Assembly (NCBI GenBank): GCA_905182095.1
Contig: CAJJAQ010000014.1
Coordinates: 1-61,328, forward strand
Direction of reading: 5' to 3'
Origin: an uncultured Pseudomonadales bacterium
Lineage (GTDB): Bacteria > Pseudomonadota > Gammaproteobacteria > Pseudomonadales > Azotimanducaceae
DNA: 61,328 bases
The translations under genes and the position numbers were made by a program. The notes under the pieces were generated by a model. It made no database searches, had not been told where the DNA came from, and saw only the letters and a program-made list of their open reading frames with translations. Shown here piece after piece: positions 44,333 through 46,894 of the stretch (positions within the stretch are counted from its first letter, which is position 1; each line of letters starts with the position of its first letter).

Positions 44333-44372
44333 TTATCAACTTCTCTTTTGAAGATTTTTCTATCTTCTTCTA

Positions 44373-44410
44373 GCTTTTGACGGCTTTTGACGGCTTTTGA
44401 CGGCTTTTGA
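44373..44410. repeat. 3.8 perfect tandem copies of GCTTTTGACG (10 bp)
   Basis: Direct reading, adjacent to tRNA 3' end. Confidence 0.9.
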
Positions 44411-44452
44411 TATGGTGGGCCCACCAGGACTCGAACCTGGGACCAATGGATT

Positions 44453-44801
44453 CACATTCTCACTGCCTTTCGACAATGTGCGGACTATCTCATCTCCCTC
44501 GCCAACTTATCACCAAGTAACTTATCACCAAGTAACTTAGTACTAAGAATCGTTAGGGAGCGGGACGCTCTGGCCTGTTATTAAGAGCACTTGAAGCCTT
44601 CTTTTAGTCTCGGTTTAAACTATGTTTAAACTAGACCAAAATTCGGTTTCAGCTCTCAGGTAGTCTCTGCACCTTCCGACAGTGTACTGTCGGCTTGGCT
44701 CAGGATTGCCGGCGGCCCTGCGTTTATTGCAAGTTCGCTACGGTTTCCCTGAATTCATCCCGTTCATCCTGACCCTTTCGGTGTCAGGCGCACCTGTATT
44801 G
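44453..44801 (-). ncRNA. Group I self-splicing intron (349 nt) in the tRNA-Ile2 anticodon loop, no internal ORF
   Basis: Minus strand: P element AATTCAGGGAAACC, Q AATCCTGAGCCAAGCC, R GGTGCAGAGACTA, S GATAGTCC; P4 TTCAGG/CCTGAG, P3 CGGGAT/GTCCCG, P7 GACTA/TAGTC, P8 CTCCCT/AGGGAG; terminal G; exon U before intron; GTG guide at nt 9-11 complementary to CAU. Confidence 0.93.
44504..44539. repeat. 2.4 tandem copies of AACTTATCACCAAGT (15 bp) in the intron P8 loop
   Basis: Direct reading. Confidence 0.9.
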
Positions 44802-44989
44802 ATGAGTCCACTGCTCTAACCAACTGAGCTATAGGCCCCATATCATATCGCTATCATTTGTTTGTACGGCATGCCGCGCAAACTGTCATCGCACTTGGCG
44901 CAATTATTACACAAAGATGACAACACTGCTGTTCAGAAGTGATAATTCGCTCCTAGGATAGGCTTCCTCAATGCAAAAGCAGACTTCGC

Positions 44990-46894
44990 CTAAACGTTGT
45001 TTCTGCCTTTGCCACCTTCGACGCTTTCATCAAGAAAACTACGCAAGTGTTCCGAACGGCTAGGATGACGCAATTTGCGCAATGCCTTAGCCTCAATCTG
45101 ACGTATTCTTTCACGTGTTACATCAAATTGCTTACCTACCTCTTCCAGAGTGTGGTCGGTATTCATATCAATGCCGAAGCGCATACGCAGAACTTTGGCT
45201 TCGCGAGCGGTTAATCCACCCAACACATCTTTAGTCGCTTCTCTTAAGCCTTCGCCTGTAGCAAGGTCTATAGGAGAGCCAATTGTACTGTCTTCAATAA
45301 AGTCACCCAAGTGCGAATCTTCATCGTCACCAATTGGCGTTTCCATGGAAATCGGTTCTTTGGCAATTTTTAGTACTCGCCGTACTTTATCTTCTGGCAT
45401 CTCCATACGCTCGCCTAGTTCTTCTGGCGTTGGCTCACGACCCATTTCTTGCAGCATTTGCCGTGATACACGGTTTAGCTTATTAATGGTTTCTATCATG
45501 TGCACCGGAATACGGATGGTTCTGGCTTGGTCCGCAATAGAACGCGTAATAGCCTGACGAATCCACCAAGTAGCGTAAGTTGAAAACTTATAGCCGCGAC
45601 GATATTCAAACTTATCCACGGCCTTCATCAAACCAATGTTACCTTCTTGAATAAGATCTAAGAACTGTAACCCGCGGTTCGTGTATTTCTTCGCAATCGA
45701 AATAACCAAGCGCAAGTTCGCTTCGACCATATCTTTTTTCGCTCGGCGAGCTTTCGCTTCGCCCAATGACATACGTCGATTAATATCCTTAATTTCAACA
45801 ATGCTGAGTTCAGTAATTTTACTCAGAGCTTTCATTTTCTTTTGTGACCGGAGAATGTCTTCGCGCTGGTTTTCTAACGCAACGGCGTATTCTTTTTTGC
45901 TCTTGGAAATCTTGTTCATCCAAGTCACGCTGATTTCATTACCGATATATTCTTTGCGGAACAATTCGCGAGGCACCCGAGCACGCCTGACAACTGCGTT
46001 AGTAATAATACGCTCATGACGGCGCACAATACCTTGGGCCTCACGAGCCATGGCCACCATGCGATCAAAATGCTTTGGTACTAACTTAAAGCAGCAATAG
46101 GCTTCGGCCAGTTTAACCATCTGAGCTTCTGACTCTTTGCTGCTAGCACCTTTCTCTTCAATTATTTTCAGCGACTTATTGTATTGACGCTTAAGTAGAG
46201 AAAAACGCTTCTTCGCTTCAATGGGATCTGGGCCCTTATTCTCTTCTTCCTCTTCCTCAGCAACCACCGGAGTGCCATCTGGGTTCAGCGCTGGCGTACC
46301 GTCTGCATTTAATACAGGCTCTGGCTTCTTCGGCGGCTCTTGACCCACCTGAGTTGCTGCAGGAACATTATCTGTGGGGTCTAAATAGCCTACTAACAGA
46401 TCCGCAAGCTTTTCTTCTTTGGTTACATCCGCATAGGTATCGAGTAAGTAACTGACAGTGCCAGGGTAATAGGCCAATGCCGTTAAAACATCTCTTATGC
46501 CTTCTTCGATACGCTTAGCAATTGCGATCTCACCTTCTCTGGTGAGTAGCTCAACAGTACCCATTTCACGCATATACATACGTACTGGATCTGTTGTGCG
46601 ACCTGCTTCAGTCTCTACCGCTGCAAGGGCAGCCGCAGCTTCCTCCGCGGCTAGCTCATCAGCGGTATTTTCTTCATTAGAAAGCAATTCATCTGCATCT
46701 GGGGCTGTTTCATAAACAGTAATCCCCATATCGTTAATCATGCGAATAATGTCTTCGATCTGCTCGGGGTCAGAAATATCGTCGGGCAGGTGATCGTTGA
46801 CTTCGCCGTAGGTCAAAAAGCCCTGCTCTTTGCCCTTTTTAATAAGTTCTTTTAGGCGCGATTGCTGCTGGTCATTGGCAATTTGATTACTCAT
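44990..46894 (-). CDS. rpoD: RNA polymerase sigma-70 factor RpoD
   Basis: [101 protein letters not shown]. Confidence 0.98.

Follow-up and report, generated by a model that had tools for sequence, protein, structure and literature searches.

How does a bacterium maintain a tRNA for AUA codons when the only tRNA-Ile2(CAU) gene detected in its genome is broken inside the anticodon loop, and what kind of element breaks it? The question arises from a 61,328-nucleotide stretch of DNA, here called the window, whose host, a marine gammaproteobacterium, falls within or close to the K189A (HTCC2089) clade of the OMG group; the rpoD gene of an HTCC2089-labelled MAG (L089) is 97% identical to that of the window. 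The usual example of a bacterial tRNA-Ile2 group I intron is the Azoarcus IC3 ribozyme.

A tRNA-Ile2 gene split after its anticodon

Positions 44838-44413 of the minus strand hold a tRNA-Ile2(CAU) gene of 37 + 40 nt that a group I intron of 349 nt interrupts after C34-A35-U36 (Table 1). Joined in silico, the exons give a 77-mer with a perfect cloverleaf that ARAGORN, which labels every CAT tRNA 'Met', accepts as a CAT-anticodon tRNA; the expected spliced junction is CTCATAATCC. The coordinates, exons, intron and helices listed in an initial annotation of this DNA all agree with the sequence and with the ARAGORN result on the joined exons, and its expectation that the intron-deleted sequence would be recognized as a tRNA is borne out. 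The Rfam model RF00028 matches 44813-44461(-) with 76.4 bits (gathering score 50; E 1.2e-17), confirming the proposed group I identity, and this is the sole above-threshold Rfam match in the whole 61-kb window.

The gene is hidden from standard scanners, as had been predicted: ARAGORN in its default (no-intron) mode calls no tRNA in the 61-kb window, and in intron mode the ambiguity of the intron boundary leads it to shift that boundary and report tRNA-Gln(CTG) instead. The ORF list contains no ORF of at least 80 aa inside the 349-nt intron, in line with the earlier statement that it carries no homing endonuclease. Directly 3′ of the split tRNA, at window positions 44372-44409, the 10-mer TCAAAAGCCG (minus strand) is repeated in tandem about 3.8 times.

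Table 1 Features of the split tRNA-Ile2 locus in the window, and viral loci split at the same position (viral coordinates refer to their own loci)
Feature	Position	Strand	Evidence or remark
rpoD, upstream on same strand as split tRNA	44990..46894	-	syntenic in relatives with and without the intron
tRNA-Ile2(CAU) 5′ exon, 37 nt, 3′ end = anticodon CAT	44802..44838	-	sequence, ARAGORN; same in congeners
Group I intron, 349 nt, between position 36 and A37	44453..44801	-	RF00028 76.4 bits; covariation
Internal guide GTG (P1 with CAT; U.G at splice site)	44791..44793	-	GGTG invariant, 55 introns
P2 hairpin, GAAA loop	44768..44788	-	two-sided changes at 7/7 pairs
P3 5′ strand CGGGATG; 3′ strand	44756..44762; 44567-44561	-	99.5% paired, 55 introns
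P7 5′ strand GACTA; 3′ strand TAGTC	44661..44665; 44487-44483	-	pairing invariant
P7.1/P7.1a domain CCTGAG...CTTAATAACAGG, between P7 and P3′	44574..44660	-	P7.1a covaries; phage terL motif
P8, enlarged loop with about 2.3 copies of a 15-nt tandem repeat	44493..44560	-	sequence, 55-intron alignment
P9 hairpin, GAAA loop	44461..44478	-	two-sided changes at 6/6 pairs
Terminal (omega) G, 3′ splice site	44453	-	sequence
tRNA-Ile2 3′ exon, 40 nt including encoded CCA	44413..44452	-	sequence, ARAGORN; congeners
Viral split tRNA-Ile2 loci, same position	L208:2501-2810, L209:2483-2793, L233, L211-L218, L220-L227		both intron types

The intron contains P2, P3, P4, P7, P8 and P9 and is preceded by a U at the 5′ splice site; like other group I introns it has a P3-P9 core with a P3/P7 pseudoknot, a U.G pair at the 5′ splice site and a terminal G, and across the genus the intron ends in GTG or GCG. 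When 55 homologous type-B introns (defined below) are aligned to the proposed structure, 98.1% of cells hold standard pairs and two-sided changes occur in 29 pairs. We observed 437 two-sided cells, compared with 128 ± 12 in shuffled controls and at most 85 in controls with slid partners; helix covariation is far above chance. The covarying helices are P2, P6a, P7.1a, P8 and P9, with one P7.1a pair, for example, being A-U in 28 introns, G-C in 25 and C-G in 2. P7 and P7.1 are invariant in the 55 introns and are therefore uninformative by covariation. Although every helix named in the initial annotation is present, a conserved hairpin domain between P7 and P3′ (44660-44574) had been missed, and the classification of the intron therefore changes.

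The class of the ribozyme

Two types of locus can be distinguished by what follows the R motif and P7. In type A, P3′ comes immediately after R-P7 (GGTGTAGAGACTAGACGGC), an arrangement that we take to be that of the Azoarcus ribozyme, and in type B the motif is GGTGCAGAGACTA, followed by a hairpin domain. The window intron is type B, with R motif GGTGCAGAGACTA and the domain CCTGAG...CTTAATAACAGG. By this rule 78 bacterial and 7 viral loci are type B and 17 bacterial and 6 viral loci are type A, some loci being listed twice, once per collection. P7.1 between P7 and P3′ is a hallmark of group IA, and subgroup IC3, to which the Azoarcus and Anabaena tRNA introns belong, has no P7.1/P7.2 extension there. 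The window intron has an 87-nt P7.1/P7.1a domain at this point, lengthened by an AT-rich loop in the window's clade and with no separate P7.2 resolved. A near-identical domain motif occurs in a Vibrio-phage terL intron, and the T4 nrdD intron, annotated as group 1A, also has a P7.1 domain.

The remainder of the core leads to the same assignment. To keep the extra domain from driving the grouping, we removed the P7-to-P3′ stretch and built a FastTree phylogeny of 120 cores from the 110 columns used. The tree shows an exact split (support 0.972) with type A tRNA-Ile and tRNA-Arg(CCU) introns on one side, and type B tRNA-Ile introns, phage protein-gene introns, T4 nrdD and one tRNA-Leu(CAA) intron on the other. 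The window core lies with T4 and other phage IA introns, opposite the introns that we take to be Azoarcus-type and used as stand-ins for Azoarcus (L134, L131, L100 and L167); node supports within the phage side are modest. Insertion at the Azoarcus position, as noted initially, is confirmed, but the implied identity with the Azoarcus intron does not hold: the window core is 59% identical to the Azoarcus type, compared with 79% to the terL intron of Vibrio phage 11895-B1, and belongs to another subgroup. Judged by P7.1 and the 110-column tree, the window ribozyme is phage-type (group IA), its formal subgroup is, by analogy, likely IA2, and P7.1 probably supports the core as it does in group IA introns. 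The tree split and core identities also indicate that two ribozyme subgroups share one tRNA-Ile2 insertion site.

An alternative is that the intron is an Azoarcus-type (IC3) ribozyme that descends from a common proteobacterial ancestor and later gained an extra hairpin, which would agree with the same insertion position, the similarly short spacer ahead of the GUG guide and the presence of both types in proteobacteria. We consider this unlikely, however, as the core stripped of the extra domain still joins the phage group IA introns across an exact split, is closer to the Vibrio-phage terL intron than to the Azoarcus type, and carries a domain that is near-identical in phage introns. On its placement in the core tree we also discarded the simpler view that a new host carries the Azoarcus intron.

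The window intron shares with the IC3 intron of Azoarcus BH72 pre-tRNA-Ile(CAU) the host tRNA, the position after U36, a short spacer, the GUG guide, GNRA-type P2 and P9 loops and the lack of an ORF, but the Azoarcus type has R motif GGTGTAGAGACTAGACGGC and no P7.1/P7.1a, whereas the window intron has the domain and GGTGCAGAGACTA. With the phage IA introns (terL of Vibrio phages 11895-B1 and R16F, T4 nrdD and psbA of Synechococcus phage S-CBWM1) it shares the P7.1 domain and the side of the tree, at core identities of at most 79%; unlike those introns of protein genes, it resides in a tRNA gene, lacks an ORF and has a GUG guide fitted to CAU.

Distribution in bacteria and probable function of the locus

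The same split tRNA-Ile2 lies beside rpoD in 19 of 37 congeneric genomes, corresponding to at least 19 species of the genus. Nine congeners have an intact gene (G003, G008, G009, G010, G019, G025, G026, G027 and G030), and nine could not be scored as split or intact. Exons are letter-identical in all congeneric loci with complete exons, and intron length ranges from 262 to 372 nt. In the rpoD tree the carriers make up a single clade of 18 plus G006, which sits at the base with intronless species between, a pattern that one gain with loss or two gains would fit about equally. Within the genus the intron appears to have passed down largely together with the rpoD-tRNA locus, and to have been lost at least once or gained a second time. 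A small contig of G010 (L049, G010:C402) carries a different split tRNA-Ile2 beside the end of rpoD; G010 also has its intact gene, and the contig is possibly a contaminant.

If the locus works, its route is best read, from the sequence, as self-splicing of the usual two-step group I kind, in which GUG/CAU forms P1. A pre-tRNA would be transcribed downstream of rpoD and the intron RNA would fold, its GUG guide pairing with the CAU anticodon. An external guanosine bound at P7 would then cut after U36, and the freed U36 would attack the bond that follows the intron's terminal G, so that CAU and AA become joined in a 77-nt tRNA. TilS would convert C34 to lysidine, enabling the tRNA to read AUA.

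Several observations bear on whether this occurs. The initial annotation had left room for a second tRNA-Ile2(CAU), and we detected none in the host's draft genome: at its GRCTCATAANC sites, the only ARAGORN-accepted tRNA is a tRNA-Met with GGCTCATAACC, of initiator type by sequence. This single-genome absence is weak alone because the draft is fragmented into 216 contigs and no more than 15 matches came out of the tRNA family search; an intact tRNA-Ile2 was, in addition, found in none of the congeners with the genus-type intron. The genome encodes tilS (173.4 bits versus a cut-off of 93.6), and among the 250 Ile codons of 12 neighbouring genes 40 are AUA, rpoD contributing 5. The locus could instead be a silent remnant, with an intron that no longer splices and AUA read by another tRNA-Ile2 or a UAU tRNA, and the many tRNAs unrecovered from the draft leave some room for this. 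Yet the exons are unchanged over the carriers and all core helices are kept with compensatory changes; together with the lack of an intact copy, the presence of tilS and the use of AUA, these features therefore make an unspliced dead gene unlikely, and we give a silent remnant very little credence. Least probable of all, to the point of being negligible, is an assembly or binning artefact that brought in an intron-bearing contig from a foreign organism: several congeneric contigs end close to tRNA-Ile2 and G010 combines a stray split gene with an intact one, but the locus lies inside a 61-kb contig next to core genes such as rpoD, and it recurs in 18 more congeneric genomes, with an rpoD phylogeny that matches. 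On this sequence evidence the locus is real and correctly placed, its function is very likely, and we infer that the intron splices.

Other tRNA genes of the host genome include a second interrupted one. At L002:1437-1740, on the minus strand of contig C80, a 229-nt group I intron that lacks P7.1 (intron match at C80:12909-13122) interrupts tRNA-Arg(CCU) after the anticodon; it scores 46.5 bits, under the Rfam cut-off. The joined exons fold as tRNA-Arg(CCT), and several congeners carry this gene (L050-L057). The host tRNA of the Agrobacterium intron is likewise tRNA-Arg(CCU). A tRNA-Thr(CGT)-like gene (L017:1501-1566) ends abruptly behind the variable loop, where an integrated element may have cut it or the assembly may be at fault, and L027:1433-1521 is a selenocysteine tRNA gene (RF01852, 71.4 bits). 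In another family of the order, tRNA-Leu(CAA) contains a group I intron (L047:1450-1850, 59.6 bits) with a phage-type core, inserted apparently after position 32.

A pattern scan of GTDB genomes found at least 120 split tRNA-Ile2 loci; apart from a few Bacteroidota records, the matches listed include Lysobacter, Luteimonas, Dyella, Rhodanobacter, Woeseiaceae, Methylotenera, Variovorax and Azonexus. When the class Gammaproteobacteria was sampled evenly, 14 of 369 genomes (about 4% of sampled species) had the split gene, and all 14 carriers look phage-type (type B). With these carriers and at least 19 species of the genus, the initial description of the gene beside rpoD as normally uninterrupted overstated the rarity of the interruption; the tRNAscan-SE 2.0 paper likewise reports 36 genomes with fMet or Ile2 tRNAs hidden by group I introns, the Ile2 cases being in Acidovorax and Burkholderia (PMC8450103). 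Those Ile2 genes, as described there, resemble the window gene in being hidden from scanners by a group I intron and differ in host, which for the window is the marine K189A clade of the Gammaproteobacteria. The kind of intron and its site are already known, tRNA-Ile2 group I introns having been published for Azoarcus, Acidovorax and Burkholderia; new here are the phage-type ribozyme at the tRNA-Ile2 site and the link to phages.

Split tRNA-Ile2 genes in phages and the possible spread of the intron

BLAST with the window gene led to the jumbo phages TH47, Turkey5, Muenster, KP13-7 and RCIP0023, which are Escherichia and Klebsiella phages; their records place TH47 in Asteriusvirus and Muenster in Alcyoneusvirus. 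The full records of TH47 and Muenster each contain an unannotated tRNA-Ile2(CAU) with a group I intron at the same point (100.5 and 104.1 bits), and Turkey5, KP13-7 and RCIP0023 match these two across most of the gene; the OU509535 intron scores 89.9 bits with RF00028. ARAGORN accepts the joined exons of TH47 and not those of Muenster. All five phages share the tRNA and the insertion point with the window, and the TH47 intron has a type-B core 75% identical to the window core; the jumbo-phage genes differ in being phage-borne and in having introns of about 230 nt rather than 349 nt. A scan of IMG/VR added 16 further uncultivated viral contigs with tRNA-Ile2 split there, by type A and type B introns. 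These viral contigs bear tRNA arrays, and those that were checked also have phage genes such as terminase; a further contig (L219) was dropped as a chance pattern match.

Endonuclease genes accompany several of these loci. An HNH gene adjoins the split tRNA-Ile2 in TH47 and lies nearby in Muenster, and endonuclease-like genes adjoin several phage introns. In Acinetobacter phage AM101 (L210:1501-2243), an insert of 666 nt interrupts tRNA-Ile2 at this position and contains an endonuclease-like ORF whose stop codon overlaps the tRNA 3′ exon; no group I core was detected in this type of insert. The arrangement occurs in nine records (AM101 and eight with near-identical full-length matches), and in AB-Navy1 (L274) the same tRNA-Ile2 site is empty and the gene uninterrupted.

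Taken together, the best explanation, which we hold with considerable confidence, is that a self-splicing intron restores tRNA-Ile2 and that this ribozyme is kin to those of phages and passed mainly vertically within the genus. Phage-borne split tRNA-Ile2 genes and site-directed endonucleases would form a plausible route between lineages. More tentatively, and with rather more doubt than assent, we propose that the anticodon loop is a homing site shared by IA and IC3 introns, at which phages and free-standing endonucleases may move ORF-less introns between phages and bacteria.

Genomes with a split tRNA-Ile2 appear to be without an AUA-reading tRNA, and the tRNA-Ile2 site, the textbook site of the Azoarcus IC3 intron, here holds a phage-type ribozyme. 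According to a 2014 review, all phage introns then known were in protein-coding genes and there was little evidence for horizontal movement of bacterial introns (PMC3984707); GIID describes IA2 introns as common to viruses and bacteria and suggests transfer (PMC11835236), and we found no paper describing phage tRNA-Ile2 introns in the open-access literature. The split tRNA-Ile2 genes of phages bear on both points of the 2014 review and make the question of transfer testable.
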